Below are positions 1 through 18,988 of a stretch of 21,891 bases of DNA, piece after piece; the stretch's first letter is position 1; each line of letters begins with the position of its first letter. Source of the stretch: a virus; the IMG/VR virus record IMGVR_UViG_3300017958_001457, positions 1 through 21,891 of that record. One strand, given 5' to 3'. The translations under genes were made by a program, and so were the position numbers. The notes beneath the pieces are model-generated. The model was not told the DNA's origin. It saw only the letters and a program-made list of their open reading frames with translations, and searched no databases.

Positions 1-652
1 ACCATAATTTAGCATAGTCAACATCTTGACAGTTTTTAAACCAAGGGCCGCCTTCGGTAAAATGAATTGCTTTAGGTTTACCATCTTTAGGTTCTTTATA
101 CCAACCTTCTAACCAATTCCATTCATGGCTTAGAGATCCTATTTCTGAATCTTTTAGCCAACTAAATCTATGCATAAATTTTCCTGTTTCTTTATTAACC
201 ATAGCAGGTATAACCTGTGCGTTACTAGGATGTCCACAGTTCCATAATACCATTGAACTCCAGTTCTTTCTTGGATATAATGTTTGTTGCTTACCATCCA
301 TTTTAACATCTTCTTTAGGTGTGTAGTCATGATGCACACACATTACAGCATACTTGTCATCTCGTTGTGCAAATAATTTGTCTACATCTTCTAACCATAA
401 AAAATCACAATCGCAGAACAATGCCCAGCCTTCGTAGTTCATTAGGTATGGAATAAGAAATCTAGTAAAAGTAAATTCTGTTGAACTTAATGTGTCAACA
501 GGTCTTGTATAAATTTTTGTTGATCGTAGTTCGTGTTGTTTTAAATATTTTATGTTTAGAGGTTCTTCTGTTGTGTGTCGTAAACTATATTCACATACAG
601 CACTAGCAATAGGCTCTCTACTGTCCCATCCTATAAAAACAGTATTTGTCAT
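1..652 (-). CDS. GT8-like glycosyltransferase, partial (C-terminus beyond window)
   Basis: Reading leftward from the ATG at 652-650, the frame is open for 217 codons to the window edge, so the C-terminus is missing. It starts MTNTVFIGWDSREPIA, a beginning I associate with phage and bacterial glycosyltransferases of the GT8-like fold. Residues 81-83 are a DCD (DxD) motif inside 'ALFCDCDFLWLEDV', expected to bind the metal and nucleotide-sugar. Near residue 197 'HFTEGGPWF' resembles the GT8 HxxGxxKPW metal-binding motif. The likely role is transfer of a sugar from a nucleotide donor in the infected cell; the acceptor (virion protein, DNA or host glycan) is unknown. Its ATG overlaps the stop of the upstream nucleotidyltransferase-cupin gene as ATGA (649-652), so translation is probably coupled. 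The fold call is fairly secure; the substrate is not. Confidence 0.8.
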   Translation of the reverse strand, partial: MTNTVFIGWDSREPIASAVCEYSLRHTTEEPLNIKYLKQHELRSTKIYTRPVDTLSSTEFTFTRFLIPYLMNYEGWALFCDCDFLWLEDVDKLFAQRDDKYAVMCVHHDYTPKEDVKMDGKQQTLYPRKNWSSMVLWNCGHPSNAQVIPAMVNKETGKFMHRFSWLKDSEIGSLSHEWNWLEGWYKEPKDGKPKAIHFTEGGPWFKNCQDVDYAKLW

Positions 653-1443
653 TTTTGTTCTCCATAGTTGGCAACTACACCAACCCTTTCAATGTCATCT
701 TCTACACAGTTATCACCGTATTGTATTTCTACAACCTTAAGCGGCAATAAAGATTCGTTGCACAACTGATGCCATTGTTTGTTTGTAATATGCAATGATT
801 CGAACTTACTATACTTACCTAAAAGTTCCATGTCAGTGGACACATTTAGAGTATATACAGTTGCTTCTCCTTCACTTATAAACCAATGTTCTGCACGGTG
901 ATTGTGCTTTTGCATTGATAATCTTTGCCCCGGGTCTACAACCAATTCCTTTACTTTAACAGTATTATCGACTTCAAACAGTACTCTATAATAACCCCAC
1001 GGTCTTTTTGTTTTTGGATATTTGTATTCTTCCAAAATCCAACTGCTCGAATTCTTTTTATTTTCTCCACCAACTCCAAATTCAAATGTTAATCTAGGAT
1101 GAAAAATTTCCATTTCTGGAATATTGTCCTTGGTTCTATCTCCACCGTTTGCAAATATTAAATGTTCATCTATGTTTAAAGTTTCTAAAATCTTTTTAAT
1201 TGCATCACAGGCAGTGTTATCGCTATCATCAAAAGCAATTACTTCGTCGACCATTGCGAGATTACGTATGATTTCTGCTCGTTCTTCGAATGGCATAAAA
1301 GATTTTCCTTTTTTACGCGATAGCCATTCGTCGGAGTTGACTCCAACAATTAAGTAACTACCAAGTTCTTTGGCAGATTTAAGGTATGCTATATGTCCTG
1401 AGTGTAGTGGATCGAAGCCACCTGTTACTAGTACTGTGTTCAT
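649..1443 (-). CDS. Nucleotidyltransferase - cupin (phosphomannose isomerase type II-like) fusion
   Basis: This 264-aa protein has two domains. Residues 1-135 form a cytidylyl/adenylyltransferase-like domain: 'VTGGFDPLHSGH' carries the HxGH nucleotide-binding signature (H14, H17), with a second phosphate-site-like stretch at 'GGDRTKDNIPE'. Residues 147-262 form a cupin like the C-terminal isomerase part of ManC/AlgA: 'RPWGYYRV', then a metal site with H180, H182 and E185 ('KHNHRAEHW'), H225, and 'VVEIQYGD...EDDIERV'. It probably makes or isomerises an activated sugar (NDP-sugar or sugar phosphate) in the cytoplasm. It is translationally coupled to the downstream glycosyltransferase, which may use its product. 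A perfect late octamer lies 5 nt before the ATG and no Shine-Dalgarno is visible. The domains are clear; the exact sugar is unknown. Confidence 0.85.
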   Translation of the reverse strand: MNTVLVTGGFDPLHSGHIAYLKSAKELGSYLIVGVNSDEWLSRKKGKSFMPFEERAEIIRNLAMVDEVIAFDDSDNTACDAIKKILETLNIDEHLIFANGGDRTKDNIPEMEIFHPRLTFEFGVGGENKKNSSSWILEEYKYPKTKRPWGYYRVLFEVDNTVKVKELVVDPGQRLSMQKHNHRAEHWFISEGEATVYTLNVSTDMELLGKYSKFESLHITNKQWHQLCNESLLPLKVVEIQYGDNCVEDDIERVGVVANYGEQK

Positions 1444-1486: not shown

Positions 1487-2152
1487 TTATTCGATATTTT
1501 TTGTAAAGAAAGGCATGGTTGTATATTGTAAATTTATGATACCACCGTTCAACATTACTTCAATTGGCATTGCCCCTTCCTTGGCTACGAATCTTGCTAG
1601 TCTTCTTACACCTGCGGGTTTTATTGCATAAGCAACAAGATTAGGTATATAATTTTCTCTCATTTTTTCGTATTCTAAAAAAGGAAGTCGTTGTTTTGTT
1701 TCAGCATCTCTATAACTTCCATCATCCTCAATTATCAATGATGGCTTAAATGATTTGATAATGTTAATAGAATGATTGGCTTTAATGCTTAAATGAAGTG
1801 CGTGTACAAATAGTTGATCAAGATTTCCAGGCAGTTCTGTAATTTGATAACCATTATAATCAACAATTAGATAAGGTATGTTGTCTTTAACGCAATCTTG
1901 CCAACATTTCCAATGTGATAAAAATTTAGATAGTGCCATAGGATCTCTGGCATACGTGTCTTTCATATTTGGGAAATGTTTAAAATTTAAAGAATTAAAA
2001 TATGCAGAAGCGGTGTTTAAATCAAAATATTCTCTTGTTTCAGGATTTAAATTCATCCTTTTGCAGACGTCAACTGCTTCTCGACTGTATTCTTTATCTT
2101 TATCTGTCGGAAGATTTTTTGGATCTAATTTTTGTAAAACAATCGTTTTCAT
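1487..2152 (-). CDS. GT25-like (LPS-type) glycosyltransferase-related protein
   Basis: This is a 221-aa protein. The segment at residues 78-105 ('LSKFLSHWKCWQDCV' then 'PYLIVDYNGYQI') has the layout of GT25 family glycosyltransferases: a 'SHxxLW' helix followed by a strand ending at an acidic active-site motif. The usual 'ILEDD' is replaced by 'LIVDYN', so the DxD-type site looks altered. A later 'LIIEDDGSYRD' (about residue 140) and 'VAYAIKPAGVRRLA' (about residue 175) resemble the GT25 'G..aYliskkGAkkL' region. It could be an active divergent transferase or a non-catalytic relative. It lies upstream of the nucleotidyltransferase-cupin and GT8-like genes and has its own late octamer, suggesting a late sugar-modification cluster. 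It could instead be an unrelated conserved phage protein. Confidence 0.5.
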   Translation of the reverse strand: MKTIVLQKLDPKNLPTDKDKEYSREAVDVCKRMNLNPETREYFDLNTASAYFNSLNFKHFPNMKDTYARDPMALSKFLSHWKCWQDCVKDNIPYLIVDYNGYQITELPGNLDQLFVHALHLSIKANHSINIIKSFKPSLIIEDDGSYRDAETKQRLPFLEYEKMRENYIPNLVAYAIKPAGVRRLARFVAKEGAMPIEVMLNGGIINLQYTTMPFFTKNIE

Positions 2153-2187: not shown

Positions 2188-2646
2188 TTAAATGGAAGCA
2201 TCTTCCATTCCTGCTACACGTAATTTAGTAATATTAGTTATTTGCCATTGCTTCATGTCAATGCCTTTTAAGATACCTAACCATTTATTACGCAACAGGG
2301 CAAACTCGTTGATAATTTTTTCCATATCAACTACGTCCGCTTCGCCGTCGACATACTTTTCTACATCTCGACTGCTTAATGCTCTTTGATAATTTTCTAA
2401 ATACTTTTTGAAAAACTTGCTTCTAGTTCTTCGTAGTTCGATGTTAAGGTACTCAAGAACTGCTTCAATTTCCTGCAACTGTGCAAAACGTTTTTCAACT
2501 ACGCCAGGTAATGACGCGGCATTCTTTTCAAGATTACCTTTGAGTCCACACTCTATTCTAGCATCTTGCATTTCGTTTTCATACCAAGTAATACAATCTG
2601 GTATGTTTGCAATGTCTTGAGTAACTCTTGAGTACCAATTAATCAT
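2188..2646 (-). CDS. uvsY: UvsY-like recombination mediator
   Basis: This 152-aa protein is similar in size to T4 UvsY (about 137 aa). The central charged helix ('IELRRTRSKFFKKYLENYQRA') and the ending 'WQITNITKLRVAGMEDASI' fit the pattern of marine T4-like UvsY proteins: a basic helical core, then a C-terminal helix with 'f.IkN.i...rf.aG'. In T4, UvsY loads UvsX on gp32-coated ssDNA. It is the last gene of the gp32-uvsX operon, which supports the call. It starts immediately after the stop of the acidic 95-aa gene (TAG-ATG). No late octamer precedes it, so it probably relies on the gp32 promoter. The assignment rests on pattern and context, not alignment. Confidence 0.7.
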   Translation of the reverse strand: MINWYSRVTQDIANIPDCITWYENEMQDARIECGLKGNLEKNAASLPGVVEKRFAQLQEIEAVLEYLNIELRRTRSKFFKKYLENYQRALSSRDVEKYVDGEADVVDMEKIINEFALLRNKWLGILKGIDMKQWQITNITKLRVAGMEDASI

Positions 2647-2934
2647 CTAGTTCCACTCATCTTCGCCTTCTTGGAATTCGGACCATTCATCACCTTCGTC
2701 GTTGTACTCTTCGTCACCCGACAAAAGGCTTTCACGTTTGCCTTGTACTTCTTCAACTGCATCATGAAGATATGGATCTTCATCAGCCAAGTTATACAAT
2801 ACTTCTTCCTCAATTCCATTATCCTGACACCATTTAACAAATCCTAGTGCCGCGGATTCTTTGTCTTTCTTTGCAATATGCGAAGTAAACATATCCCAAA
2901 GATCAATAAGTTGTTCGTCACTCATTTCTATCAT
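2647..2934 (-). CDS. Small acidic conserved phage protein in the uvsX operon
   Basis: This 95-aa protein of unknown function has a folded-looking N-terminal half ('LIDLWDMFTSHIAKKDKESAALGFVKWCQDNG') and a strongly acidic tail rich in Asp and Glu from about residue 60. The ATG at 2934 overlaps the end of uvsX by 17 nt. A second in-frame ATG at 2925 ('MSDEQ') overlaps by 8 nt. Purine-rich GAGGAAG lies 12 nt before the first ATG, which I favour weakly. Being embedded between uvsX and uvsY suggests a role in recombination or replication. The tail could mimic nucleic acid or bind a partner; that is inference only. Confidence 0.75.
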   Translation of the reverse strand: MIEMSDEQLIDLWDMFTSHIAKKDKESAALGFVKWCQDNGIEEEVLYNLADEDPYLHDAVEEVQGKRESLLSGDEEYNDEGDEWSEFQEGEDEWN

Positions 2935-4009
2935 CTTCTTTTTCTTCCTCTAAAGTAGATTCTGTTTCTGTACCAGAATACTTATCTTCGATGGATGAAA
3001 AATCTTTCATAATGATTTCGAGTTTATCACCTGTCCAATCTTTACGATAATCCAAGTGTTCTTTCCCAGTTGAGTCAACAAACTTTAAGCGGTTACCTTG
3101 TTGTTTTAGCAATCCATGTTTTTCAAACATATCAACTAAACCACTGTAAGGATCCATACCTGTTTCGTACGGAATCTTTACTTGTACACCTTCAAAAGGT
3201 TTTGCGTAACGTGTTTTCATAACCTTACAAGCGGCTCTGATACCACGCACATCTGTTACCTTTTTACCGTCTTCATCTTCTTTCAGTTTCAATTTTTTCA
3301 TTGCGATCACAATTGAACTTGCATAGATAAATCCTTGTCCACCTGATATCTTATCATCTGGATCAAACATATCCTGTGAAGCGTAAGTGTGGTTAGTACA
3401 TACCATACCAATATTATAACTACCAAACATATTGACACAGTTACGTACAAGTGCTGTAAGTGCCTTAGGTTTTCTACCCATATCACCCTTCAAGTCACCT
3501 CTATCGAACTGATCAACATCTGTTGGAGTTAGTAACATACCCAATGAGTCAATTACAAACAATACTTTAGGACGCTCTTCTGGATCCTTATCTGCATAAT
3601 CTGTTTTGTATTCACTCATAAAGTTTGATACAGTTTTTGCTACGTCATCAATCATACTCATCGATAAACGTAATAGTTTGTCTTCGCTAGTGTCAACACC
3701 AAGTGCCTGCAACCACTTTTCATCAAGTGCATTCTCTGAGTCAATTAGGACTACAAATATACCTTGTGCTTGTGCGGACTTTACAATGTTACCACTTGCA
3801 AAATAACTTTTACCTGCACCGGATTCGCCAGCAAACACCGTTACCTTACCTAAGGGGATTCCTTTGTGGAAATCCCCAGAGATAAGATAGTTAAGTGCGT
3901 AATTGCCAGTCGAAACCCAGTCAGTAGGATCGTTAAAGCCAATACCTAAGCCATTAATGCTTTTGGTCAGACCTTTACGAAATTTACTTACGTCGAATGG
4001 TTTCGCCAT
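2918..4009 (-). CDS. uvsX: UvsX RecA-like recombinase
   Basis: This 363-aa protein is close to T4 UvsX (about 390 aa). Walker A is GESGAGKS at residues 61-68. The catalytic glutamate is in 'LIDSEN' (E92). Walker B is 'VLFVIDS' at 149-155. A DNA-binding-loop region with 'KISGGQGFIYASS' lies around 220-232. It polymerises on ssDNA and does ATP-dependent strand exchange for recombination-dependent replication. The C-terminal tail ('ESTLEEEKEDDRNE') is acidic. Shine-Dalgarno GGAG lies shortly before the ATG ('GGAGATAGCATATGG'), 10 nt after the gp32 stop, so it is co-transcribed with gp32. No late octamer precedes it, fitting early/middle expression. Confidence 0.95.
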   Translation of the reverse strand: MAKPFDVSKFRKGLTKSINGLGIGFNDPTDWVSTGNYALNYLISGDFHKGIPLGKVTVFAGESGAGKSYFASGNIVKSAQAQGIFVVLIDSENALDEKWLQALGVDTSEDKLLRLSMSMIDDVAKTVSNFMSEYKTDYADKDPEERPKVLFVIDSLGMLLTPTDVDQFDRGDLKGDMGRKPKALTALVRNCVNMFGSYNIGMVCTNHTYASQDMFDPDDKISGGQGFIYASSIVIAMKKLKLKEDEDGKKVTDVRGIRAACKVMKTRYAKPFEGVQVKIPYETGMDPYSGLVDMFEKHGLLKQQGNRLKFVDSTGKEHLDYRKDWTGDKLEIIMKDFSSIEDKYSGTETESTLEEEKEDDRNE

Positions 4010-11458: not shown

Positions 11459-11847
11459 TACGCTAAAATATTTCTTTTTGCGATATTATTAGTTTCAGTT
11501 GGTTTTGCTGTTCCTAGGGTTGAAGTTTTTATTCTATTAACATTTAAAATTTCACCTAGTACATCACTCAACTGAACGCTATCAAAATCTTTAATTTCAT
11601 CCAACAAGTCACGAACTTTTACACCGTCAATTTTTGCTTGTTTCAAAACAATCAGTGCAACAGTTTTTGCCGCTTGTTCTTCCATACCACGTTTTGTAAA
11701 AAAAGAAATTACAGTGTCACTTTCAGATGCATTAAATTCTAATGGTGCTTTACCGTATGCGTCAAAATATCGGATGGTAGCATCAGAACTGCTTTTACCA
11801 GTGTTACTGTTTAAGCCTTCTTTTGGTAAATTAGAATAATCAGCCAT
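11458..11847 (-). CDS. Conserved marine T4-like phage protein, probable virion component (129 aa)
   Basis: The protein begins 'MADYSNLPKEGLNS', has a compact helical core ('YFDAYGKAPLEFNASESDTVISFFTKRGMEEQAAKTVALIVLKQAKIDG', in sequence from residue 27) and ends in a polar tail after 'GEILNVNRIKTSTLG'. I recall similar small proteins near the structural genes of marine T4-like phages, but no function. The start at 11847 has Shine-Dalgarno AGGAG and overlaps the methyltransferase end by 8 nt. Its stop overlaps the gp4 start. Being coupled to gp4 suggests a role in head or neck assembly; this is inference. Confidence 0.75.
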   Translation of the reverse strand: MADYSNLPKEGLNSNTGKSSSDATIRYFDAYGKAPLEFNASESDTVISFFTKRGMEEQAAKTVALIVLKQAKIDGVKVRDLLDEIKDFDSVQLSDVLGEILNVNRIKTSTLGTAKPTETNNIAKRNILA

Positions 11848-12571
11848 TTACTATCTCCTTTAGTTGATTTTTATTTAATAGAATAGCGTGTTTCATATAT
11901 CCTTTTATTCTACAGTGTGCTGGTAATACATATGGTTCTAACCATTCGCCAACATCTGTAGGTCCCCAATGAGACTTTTCACTTTCAGGTAATATTTTAT
12001 ACGGAAGTCTTTTTCCTCCGCTGTTCATTCCTAGATATATGTGTCCGTCGTCTTCTAAATAATTTTGTATATCATTAAAGAAAAATTTCCATTCTTTCTT
12101 TGTCCATACTGTTTCTCCTCTTGTAGAAAAGAAACCTCTCATGCAAGTAATTAAGTTATATTTTTGTGGTAAATTTAATTTAGTATTTGCATACACTAGT
12201 TCTTGAATAACTCGATCTTGAATATTTAAAAACTCGTATACAGGTTCGTAATCATGTCTATTTTTTATATCTGTTCCAAGAACATCGTGTCCTAATTTCT
12301 TACACAAATATACCATCCATCCAGCACCTGTACCTATGTCTAATACTTTTTGATTTTTATTATTATGAAGATTAAAATAAAATGCAACGGATAATTTTTC
12401 TCCTAACCATTTTCTTATAGGACCTGTAACATATCTATTACCTGTTCTAGTTGCTAGATCTTCTAGTTGGGTTTTATCTATTGTTGCTAATGTCTCTGTT
12501 ATATAATCTTCAACCTGACTTCTTAAAGGTCCTAGTTCATATTGTTCACGCAATGGAATTACTTTTAACAT
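11840..12571 (-). CDS. Class I SAM-dependent methyltransferase
   Basis: This 243-aa protein has the Rossmann methyltransferase motif I 'VLDIGTGAGW' at residues 76-85 and a motif II acidic residue, D101, in 'HDVLGTDIKN'. A post-motif strand 'YNLITCMRGFF' lies near 139-149, and 'FFNDIQNYLEDDGHIYLGMNSGG' has the usual motif near the fifth strand. No DNA-methylase DPPY/NPPY motif is seen, so a small-molecule, sugar or protein substrate seems likelier than DNA. The N-terminal 70 residues are helical and may recognise the substrate. It sits inside the structural operon, 9 nt after the tail-tube-fold gene and overlapping the next one, with no promoter of its own. This is odd for a non-structural enzyme, so late expression and perhaps modification of virion or cell-surface components can be inferred. 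Confidence 0.85.
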   Translation of the reverse strand: MLKVIPLREQYELGPLRSQVEDYITETLATIDKTQLEDLATRTGNRYVTGPIRKWLGEKLSVAFYFNLHNNKNQKVLDIGTGAGWMVYLCKKLGHDVLGTDIKNRHDYEPVYEFLNIQDRVIQELVYANTKLNLPQKYNLITCMRGFFSTRGETVWTKKEWKFFFNDIQNYLEDDGHIYLGMNSGGKRLPYKILPESEKSHWGPTDVGEWLEPYVLPAHCRIKGYMKHAILLNKNQLKEIVNG

Positions 12572-18024: not shown

Positions 18025-18363
18025 ATGACTAGATCGTTATGCAAACTGTGTAAGAAAAGACCTGTTGCTATAAACTATTACAAAGGTAAGAAGGCCTATT
18101 ATAGAAGCAAGTGCGAGCAATGTGCAACAGGTAGAAAACCCAGTACACCTTCGTGGTACCAATCAGGGTATCGTATGCAAAACAAGTGTGAAAAATGTGG
18201 GTTTGAGAGCAAACACTCGGAACAGTTTAACGTATTTCATATTGACGGAAAACTAAACAATACTAGGTATTCTAATTTAAAAACTATATGTGCTAACTGT
18301 CAAAGAATACTACAAAAAGAAGGAGTTACTTGGAAACAGGGAGACCTAACACCTGATTTCTAA
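18025..18363 (+). CDS. Small HNH-like zinc-binding protein
   Basis: This 112-aa basic protein has four Cys pairs: C6/C9, C30/C33, C55/C58 ('KCEKCGF') and C89/C92 ('CANC'). The stretch 'FHIDGKLNNTRYSNLKTICANC' (residues 71-92) matches an HNH-type beta-beta-alpha-metal motif (H-x-D-G...N...N-L...C-x-x-C), with F71 where a second His or Asp usually sits. I recall similar small proteins in marine T4-like phages. It may be a nicking endonuclease, a degenerate homing-type enzyme or a nucleic-acid-binding zinc finger. It is one of the few plus-strand genes, set between tail sheath and dNMP kinase genes that both run the other way. Its 3' end overlaps the end of gp1 by 38 nt. Confidence 0.75.
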   Translation: MTRSLCKLCKKRPVAINYYKGKKAYYRSKCEQCATGRKPSTPSWYQSGYRMQNKCEKCGFESKHSEQFNVFHIDGKLNNTRYSNLKTICANCQRILQKEGVTWKQGDLTPDF

Positions 18364-18988
18364 CTGCTTGATGTAACTCGTCAAGTGTGCCATCATTTTC
18401 AATAGTGTCGTCTACTTTTTCACCCACCCATGCATATTCGCTTTGATGCACATCGGGCCAATGTTCTTTCATCTTATCAGTAAGTATCATATTCTTAGTA
18501 ACCAGTGCTTCTTTATTATGTTCGTTTTGTTTGATAGCATCTTCCCACCATTTAGGCTCAGGTCCACGTTTAATACGATAAACTTTACCTCTTAATCGTT
18601 TAATCATCTTAACTTCATTAGGAAAACGCACATCACTAATAACAGCATCCTGTTTCATTTGTAATAGTCTATTTTCTAAACTAGCAATCCAGATATCGTC
18701 ATGAAATCCTTTACGCAGAACATCTGTACCCCAATACTGTAATACCCATCGAGGAGTGAGTTTAGGCATACCTAGTTTTTCTGCCCACCATTCGTCGACC
18801 TGTTCACGCCAAACACGTGACTCTTCTGAATTGCCTTCAAGCATTTCTCTGTCCCAACCAAATACAGCCGCAACAGCATCTTTGAGGGTGGTAGCAAAAC
18901 TAACACGTTTATACCCGCCTTCGCTAACAAGGATGTCAGCACAGGTATCTTTTCCAGAACCAATAAGTCCTACGAATCCAATAATCAT
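18326..18988 (-). CDS. 1: gp1 deoxynucleoside monophosphate kinase
   Basis: This 220-aa protein is close to T4 gp1 (241 aa). Its P-loop is 'GLIGSGKDTCAD' (residues 7-18). 'LTPRWVLQYWGTDVLRKGFHDDIWIASL' and 'VISDVRFPNEVKMIKRLRGKVYRIKRG' follow the layout of phage dNMP kinases, including the 'DVRFPNE' segment. It phosphorylates dNMPs to dNDPs from degraded host DNA for phage replication. It has two promoters: a consensus sigma70 site (19019-19047) and a late-type octamer at the ATG. Its coding region converges with, and overlaps by 38 nt, the HNH-like gene on the other strand. No terminator was seen between them. Confidence 0.93.
   Translation of the reverse strand: MIIGFVGLIGSGKDTCADILVSEGGYKRVSFATTLKDAVAAVFGWDREMLEGNSEESRVWREQVDEWWAEKLGMPKLTPRWVLQYWGTDVLRKGFHDDIWIASLENRLLQMKQDAVISDVRFPNEVKMIKRLRGKVYRIKRGPEPKWWEDAIKQNEHNKEALVTKNMILTDKMKEHWPDVHQSEYAWVGEKVDDTIENDGTLDELHQAVRNQVLGLPVSK

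Follow-up and report, generated by a model that had tools for sequence, protein, structure and literature searches.

This analysis concerns an open reading frame (ORF) on the minus strand of a marine phage DNA stretch of 21,891 nucleotides (IMG/VR record IMGVR_UViG_3300017958_001457, positions 1 to 21,891), which as a whole is referred to below as the window. The ORF (649..1443, 264 aa plus stop, uninterrupted, with an ATG start) fuses a nucleotidyltransferase (NT) domain of the HxGH type (HIGH superfamily) to a type II phosphomannose isomerase (PMI) cupin. It is fairly probable that the fusion acts in sugar activation as a bifunctional enzyme, taking the role of ManC/AlgA with an unrelated nucleotidyltransferase, i.e., that it is a non-orthologous replacement of ManC. 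A role in sugar activation, as had been proposed in a first-pass annotation of the window, is supported as likely. The wider proposition, that a HIGH-superfamily GDP-mannose pyrophosphorylase joined to a PMI cupin takes the place of ManC in SAR11 and in a large part of SAR86, and that T4-like marine phages have long carried it, may equally well prove right or wrong. The domains, the motifs, the bacterial distribution, the absence of ManC and type I PMI over cut-off, and the co-occurrence with Gmd are computed observations, and are given in turn.

The N-terminal part matches PF01467 (CTP_transf_like) over residues 6-106 with 64.6 bits (Pfam cut-off 21), and the C-terminal part matches PF01050 (MannoseP_isomer) over residues 143-254 with 87.5 bits (gathering cut-off 23.6). 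Both scores lie far above the cut-offs and confirm the two domain identities proposed earlier. From these matches and from fold matches, the NT domain is assigned to residues 1-140 (1024..1443, minus strand) and the cupin to residues 141-264 (652..1023, minus strand). In the NT domain, H14, G16, and H17 of the HSGH motif (1393..1404, minus strand; residues 14-17) are invariant in 35 aligned rows, as are S133 and S134 of NSSSWIL (1033..1053, minus strand; residues 131-137), which we take to occupy the place of the ISSTxxR-type motif. In the cupin, the active-site motif SMQKHNHRAEHW (883..918, minus strand; residues 176-187) has S176, Q178, H180, R183, E185, and W187 invariant in the same 35 rows, and the C-terminus has the type II PMI motifs SxQxHxxRxExW and ExQxG....ExDIxR. 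Among 17 aligned viral members, HxGH, GGDR, VGGxxKxNSSSW, SMQxHxxRxExW, WHxLxN, and EIQxGxxCxExDIxR are invariant.

The ManC/AlgA model of NCBIfam (TIGR01479, GMP_PMI) scores 85.9 bits on the fusion, over model positions 353-461 only, which is the cupin part, and does not reach its cut-off of 372.95. PF00483 (NTP_transferase, GT-A) is not among the Pfam matches of the fusion at E ≤ 1, the N-terminus being PF01467, and the earlier suggestion that an HxGH domain is paired here with the PMI cupin, instead of the GT-A domain of ManC/AlgA, is borne out. The fusion and ManC/AlgA thus share a homologous C-terminal PMI cupin, the order of nucleotidyltransferase and cupin, the same predicted pair of reactions, and a like gene neighbourhood in SAR86, but differ in the N-terminus (HxGH superfamily versus GT-A) and in length (264 aa versus approximately 470).

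An AlphaFold2 model of the fusion, made with the 35-row alignment, has a mean predicted local distance difference test score of 90.4 and a predicted TM-score of 0.60. In this model each domain is confident, but because of the latter score their placement relative to each other is not. Upon fold re-alignment the NT half is nearest to 3glv (Z 16.2), HldC 5xf2 (Z 15.3, 118 residues aligned, 1.9 Å), and other cytidylyltransferases. The cupin half, which keeps the motif residues of type II PMI, is also nearest in fold to an archaeal PMI, although narrowly: Thermococcus PMI (7zvy, Z 15.1, 108 residues aligned, 2.2 Å; 7zvm, Z 14.9) is closely followed by CapF (Z 14.6) and many other cupins (Z 13-14), and Foldseek's own ranking of the model puts CapF and other cupins on top and no PMI first. 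A GDP-mannose pyrophosphorylase is not among the listed fold matches, which excludes nothing. In sequence searches of PDB with the fusion, the best stretches lie within one domain or the other, save one chance-level match.

The fusion is real and not an accident of assembly. In IMG/VR, 598 of 599 candidate stretches are relatives, and in all of the best 80 kept as loci (of at least 598) the match, with 58-100% identity, runs from residue 1-4 through at least residue 249 and thus spans both domains. The possibility, raised earlier, that the relatives would carry two separate genes is not realized in these 80 loci.

Nor is the fusion a phage peculiarity; it is common in SAR11 and SAR86. In a genome collection, the best 80 of at least 276 relatives were kept as loci, most of them from SAR11 or SAR86, and 78 of the 80 reach well into the cupin, the other two (L165 and L167) having the NT part only. 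Five loci filed under bacterial metagenome-assembled genomes (MAGs; L088, L089, L090, L127, and L165) are phage-like when their neighbours are judged by eye, and their genes would pass as bacterial. Because these five, L165 among them, look like phage contigs, 74 of the 78 fusion loci are taken as cellular. The first-pass annotation was correct in describing a fused phage protein, but the fusion is not specific to phages, and a phage-only invention is rejected in view of the bacterial copies, mostly from SAR11 and SAR86.

In 25 SAR11 loci (L110, L099, and 23 others) the fusion stands at a fixed spot between the same two genes, which, from one scanned copy of each, are polA (1110.9 bits) and an MFS transporter gene. 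No polysaccharide cluster accompanies it within the flanks viewed in these 25 loci. A tree with 84 rows unites 34 viral rows, including the phage-like MAG contig L088, in one clade (100/99) and seven SAR11 rows in another (100/96); the phage-like MAG contigs L089, L090, and L127 fall outside the viral clade. The branch uniting the viral clade with SAR11 is weak (29/64), and the tree points to no particular root or donor.

The specific proposal of GDP-mannose as the product is made because of the bacterial genome context. Twenty fusion genomes were hand-picked from the 80 loci, two of which (L162 and L163) were taken after a gmd-like neighbour had been seen. Neither ManC (TIGR01479) nor type I PMI is found over cut-off in any of the 20. 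Each has a cupin-only TIGR01479 match (model positions approximately 352-467) in an ORF of fusion length; the additional TIGR01479 matches are lone cupins in two genomes and one 18-bit GT-A match in one. Phosphohexomutase is present in all 20 (two or more in 17), and Gmd is over cut-off in nine, or in seven of 18 when L162 and L163 are excluded.

In SAR86, all 107 genomes of the family of G016 in the collection were surveyed. A TIGR01479 match of any kind occurs in 72, of which six were left out, either because their cupin matches are short or weak (G091, G116, and G120) or because they have GT-A-type matches only (G063, G078, and G081). ManC is present in five genomes, all five with Gmd, and fusion-type cupin ORFs in 61, and the two never occur together. 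Gmd is found in 18 genomes, of which five have ManC, 12 the fusion, none both, and one (G085) neither; in all 12 Gmd-positive fusion genomes (G016 as L164) a two-domain NT and cupin ORF was read. Fisher tests, uncorrected for kinship, completeness, and number of tests, give p = 0.013 for the exclusion of ManC and fusion, p = 0.001 for Gmd with either, and p = 0.008 for Gmd and the fusion among the genomes that lack ManC. Of the 53 genomes in the collection from the Pelagibacteraceae, the family to which G004 belongs, none has ManC over cut-off, 49 have a fusion-type cupin, and 27 have Gmd, 25 of which also have the cupin. The fusion in this family is deduced from the lengths of the ORFs, which are 258-273 aa in 48 genomes and 127 aa, near a contig start, in one, the full fusion ORF being available for 25 SAR11 loci. 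Because Gmd consumes GDP-mannose, the Pelagibacteraceae that possess it need a source of this sugar nucleotide.

The synteny in several genomes is in agreement with the GDP-mannose proposal. For example, the Dadabacteria locus L163 has a GT2-like gene and then gmd (452.2 bits, cut-off 415) after the fusion, and the same three genes adjoin in L162, with gmd on the opposite strand. In the SAR86 genome G044, gmd lies 294 bases past the fusion. In G109 the order is fusion, Wzz-like gene, gmd, and fcl, and in G080 it is the same with one additional short ORF; in both, these genes are in an island beginning at uvrC-pgsA (fcl 480.0 bits in G080 and 511.7 bits in G109, cut-off 500). In G061 and G086, a like uvrC-pgsA island carries manC instead of the fusion. 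The uvrC, pgsA, and Wzz genes of these SAR86 islands were identified by eye.

Under the proposal, the cupin would interconvert fructose-6-phosphate and mannose-6-phosphate, a host phosphohexomutase would turn the latter into mannose-1-phosphate, and the HxGH domain would form GDP-mannose and pyrophosphate from mannose-1-phosphate and GTP. SAR11/SAR86-type bacteria probably use the fusion in this way instead of ManC, and there the product would go to users of GDP-mannose, such as Gmd/Fcl (for GDP-fucose) and mannosyltransferases. In phage, GDP-mannose would be supplied during infection to at least one glycosyltransferase of the variable island beside uvsX, where the fusion would have long been resident in T4-like phages. 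We infer both catalytic activities, GTP as the nucleotide, mannose as the sugar, and the keeping of the bacterial specificity by the phage enzyme.

The phage neighbourhood was compared in 81 gene maps (the 80 kept viral loci and the window). Directly downstream of the fusion, the window has a GT8-like glycosyltransferase gene (2..652, minus strand; phrog_28018, 174.5 bits), which is open at the window end and of which L002 has a complete copy with 100% identity across the shared part. This gene begins at 652, and the plus strand reads tcat at 649-652, so that the ATGA coupling described earlier is verified as a stop/start overlap. The GT8 model PF01501 gives 18.7 bits and does not reach its gathering cut-off of 24.3, and the nearest folds, WbbM (Z 17.3) and LgtC (Z 16.9), are of the GT8 type. 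The gene directly downstream of the fusion has a GT8-like motif in 45 of the 81 maps. In a further 12 and 6 maps it belongs to two types that fall into the same cluster without a confident Pfam match (for the first type, one was scanned as the next gene and had none), in six it is GT-B-like by weak Pfam matches, in ten it is something else, and in two the contig ends first. The overlap with the downstream gene is exactly four bases in 40 maps.

Upstream of the fusion, the window has on the minus strand a GT25-like glycosyltransferase gene (1487..2152; PF01755, 26.7 bits, cut-off 24), followed by two conserved neighbours, the gene for a UvsY-like protein of 152 aa (2188..2646; PF11056, 17.1 bits, under the cut-off of 22.8) and that for a UvsX/RecA-like recombinase (2918..4009). 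The UvsY-like cluster occurs in 63 of the 81 maps and the uvsX cluster in 60, and 49 have a cluster identified by eye as gp32. In these phages the core of gp32 (by eye), uvsX, and the uvsY-like gene stands ahead of a variable glycan island. In some copies (e.g., L034, L068, and L079) the fusion lies among replication genes with no adjoining glycosyltransferase.

Of 63 phage records in GenBank that match the fusion protein, none spans 80% of it; a cupin match is present in 13 records. In the cyanomyoviruses S-SSM7, P-TIM68, S-SCSM2R, and Sf-FS3 the NT part lies between DNA polymerase (gp43) and uvsX. It alone is detected in S-SSM7, P-TIM68, and Sf-FS3; in the complete cyanophage S-SCSM2R the NT and cupin are separate genes, and apparently so in AG-345-D19, a single-cell virus. 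Among phages, the terminase of the window best matches records of Pseudomonas phages (53.8%), and its UvsX those of Sinorhizobium and Agrobacterium phages (66.9 and 66.5%).

Some further genes were seen in these phages. Some fusion phages also have a second HxGH-type NT gene (L061:7663-8160, L071:8231-8674, and L076:7681-8151), which encodes 148-165 aa and lacks a cupin; two of these three gave profile matches. L014:1680-3410 and L061:4363-6000 encode proteins of 545-576 aa that seemingly combine a GT8-like part with a second glycosyltransferase-like part; one was scanned and had no Pfam match. In the window, 18326-18988 (minus strand) encodes a T4-like deoxynucleoside monophosphate kinase (phrog_139, 164 bits), and 11840-12571 (minus strand), in the half with larger, structural-looking genes, encodes a methyltransferase-like protein (Methyltransf_23, 26.4 bits, just below cut-off).

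A number of observations, both in the bacteria and in the phages, weigh against GDP-mannose as the product. Fusion genomes without Gmd over cut-off are numerous (11 of 20, 49 of 61 in the G016 family, and 24 of 49 in the Pelagibacteraceae), and the Fisher tests on the G016 family disregard kinship and completeness. Three genomes (G085, G149, and G183) have Gmd without fusion or ManC, which may be explained by incomplete genomes. The best named models for the NT domain are HldE domain II (TIGR02199, rfaE/HldE domain II, of NCBIfam; 74.5 bits, below the cut-off of 181.5) and glycerol-3-phosphate cytidylyltransferase (58.3 bits, cut-off 165.4), and neither of them is a GDP-mannose enzyme. Among 14 named control genomes, Gmd is over cut-off in six and ManC in four. 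At least two control genomes therefore have Gmd without ManC over cut-off, possibly by having separate guanylyltransferases, and the absence of ManC is by itself weak evidence.

Because the ManC model misses some GDP-mannose makers, the GT-A proteins of the nine Gmd-positive fusion genomes were inspected. G006, G016, and G017 have 3, 3, and 2 PF00483 matches, respectively. In each of the three genomes a small GT-A protein has MurU as its best model (over cut-off in one of the three) and is encoded next to an AmgK-like gene, MurU and AmgK being a peptidoglycan recycling pair; the remaining five proteins were assessed by length and, in two cases, also by the initial residues. For the six other genomes, 20 of the 25 matches were scanned, the five omitted being of approximately GlmU length. 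The best models of the 20 are RmlA (3), glucose-1-phosphate cytidylyltransferase (6, one weak), MurU (3), GalU (2), inositol-1-phosphate cytidylyltransferase (1), and mannose-1-phosphate guanylyltransferase (1, in G004), with no good fit for four. None of the GT-A proteins scanned in these Gmd-positive fusion genomes passes the mannose-1-phosphate guanylyltransferase cut-off. Two results here count on the adverse side, namely the G004 protein (131.6 bits against a cut-off of 440) and the four proteins without a good fit, which are in G019 and G020. The G004 protein (L253 1059-2126, 355 aa, with an extra N-terminal part) might supply GDP-mannose in place of the fusion in this SAR11 genome.

On the phage side, the adverse points are that the glycosyltransferase coupled to the fusion is GT8-like, that phosphohexomutase is absent from the 19 phage records searched, which may be fragments, and that none of the seven epimerase-like phage ORFs scanned (of ten listed within 5 kb flanks) is over the Gmd cut-off. 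One of the latter exceeds Pfam's broader GDP_Man_Dehyd cut-off, yet with a score lower than its own Epimerase score. A complete phage-borne pathway is rejected on the last two of these grounds, and since no mutase was found in the 19 records, host help would be needed for the mutase step. Characterized GT8 enzymes take UDP-sugars, and by analogy the coupled enzyme probably does so too; for this reason it is not a clear consumer of the fusion product. The two-gene unit for sugar activation and transfer envisaged by the first-pass annotation is thus doubtful with respect to the GT8-like enzyme as the user of the product. Glycosylation by enzymes of the island is the likely use of the product in phage.

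Several of these points would also fit an enzyme that makes another activated sugar or polyol (e.g., CDP- or ADP-linked), GDP-mannose being then provided by an unrecognized or promiscuous GT-A enzyme. The cytidylyltransferases 1coz, 5x3d, and 3elb among the nearest folds, the weak best match in G004 together with the four unassigned GT-A proteins of G019 and G020, and the control genomes with Gmd and no ManC over cut-off are in its favour. This alternative is nevertheless considered unlikely, because the small GT-A genes of G006, G016, and G017 are MurU-like and stand beside AmgK-like genes, and ManC and the fusion-type cupin occur together in none of the 107 G016-family genomes.

It is rather unlikely that the phage enzyme serves DNA modification (e.g., DNA glycosylation) or another replication-linked task and not glycan building. 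The frequent uvsX cluster (60 of 81 maps), the NT-only gene between gp43 and uvsX in four cyanophages, and the copies without an adjoining glycosyltransferase (e.g., L034, L068, and L079) would be in keeping with such a task, but a GT8-like gene follows 45 of the 81 copies and a GT-B-like gene six. Seven window proteins were scanned, of which one is methyltransferase-like, and no search was aimed at base-modifying partners.

The heptose pathway offers a further interpretation, in which the HxGH domain would be a heptose-1-phosphate adenylyl- or guanylyltransferase like HldC or HldE domain II, and the cupin would isomerize sedoheptulose-7-phosphate in place of GmhA. The NT domain shares its superfamily with HldE domain II and HldC, with the former as its best named profile and the latter among its nearest folds, and PHROG 7878 bears the name heptose 1-phosphate adenyltransferase. 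However, the fusion is below the cut-off of the HldE domain II model, its partner domain is a cupin of the PMI type and not a kinase, and the pattern of Gmd and ManC would be left unexplained. The interpretation is set back because the HldE kinase model (TIGR02198, heptose-7-phosphate kinase) is over cut-off in none of the 20 bacterial fusion genomes: it comes near in G001 (305.6 bits, cut-off 345), gives weaker, sugar-kinase-like matches of no more than 43.6 bits in 16, and has no match in three. Moreover, the genome G085 has an HldE-like protein beside GmhA- and GmhB-like ORFs (identified by eye save for the NT match) and no fusion match. Overall, a heptose enzyme appears quite improbable. 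The G085 locus in question (L240, 6055-11822) is a SAR86-family gmd island with no ManC or fusion match, in which the HldE-like protein has two domains and the adjoining ORFs look GmhA- and GmhB-like to the eye.

Finally, it is very unlikely that the cupin is structural or regulatory and the NT domain alone active: H182, the second His of HxH, is not conserved in the fusion family, but full-length ManC of SAR86 is variable there as well and the remaining motif residues are invariant in 35 rows, and a loss of the cupin site from the H182 variation is rejected on account of the SAR86 ManC.

With respect to known systems, PMIs and HIGH nucleotidyltransferases of phages have already been published as separate proteins (PMC9602691, PMC7824862). 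According to Wang et al. (2022, PMC9602691), the cyanophage S-SCSM1 has genes for GDP-fucose synthase and GDP-mannose 3,5-epimerase as well as gmd. Its stand-alone type II PMI shares with the fusion a phage-borne PMI cupin in a GDP-mannose/GDP-fucose setting, but is single-domain; the 267 cyanophage mannose-6-phosphate isomerases retrieved in that study are given as all monofunctional. Phage glycan clusters that combine cupin isomerases, HIGH nucleotidyltransferases, and glycosyltransferases, with a suggested surface-glycan role, have been described by Iyer et al. (2021, PMC7824862). The ingredients and the suggested role are the same as here, but the components are named separately, and section 3.4.10 of that paper mentions neither a fusion nor an assignment to GDP-mannose. 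Among the titles and abstract beginnings listed by searches of the open PMC library, none describes the fusion or a GDP-mannose enzyme from the HIGH superfamily.

If the GDP-mannose proposal is true, it would fill a metabolic hole in SAR11 and SAR86, exemplified by the Pelagibacteraceae with ManC in 0 of 53 genomes and Gmd in 27 of 53, and would extend GDP-mannose synthesis to a new fold. Phage genes labelled, for example, 'heptose 1-phosphate adenyltransferase' would be relabelled. According to an earlier report quoted in PMC9602691, viral metagenomes contain PMI genes approximately as often as psbA, and the proposal may bear on this reported frequency. GDP-mannose is an activated sugar for building surface sugars. 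The phages would bring their own copy of a GDP-mannose enzyme typical of some of the most abundant bacteria in the ocean.

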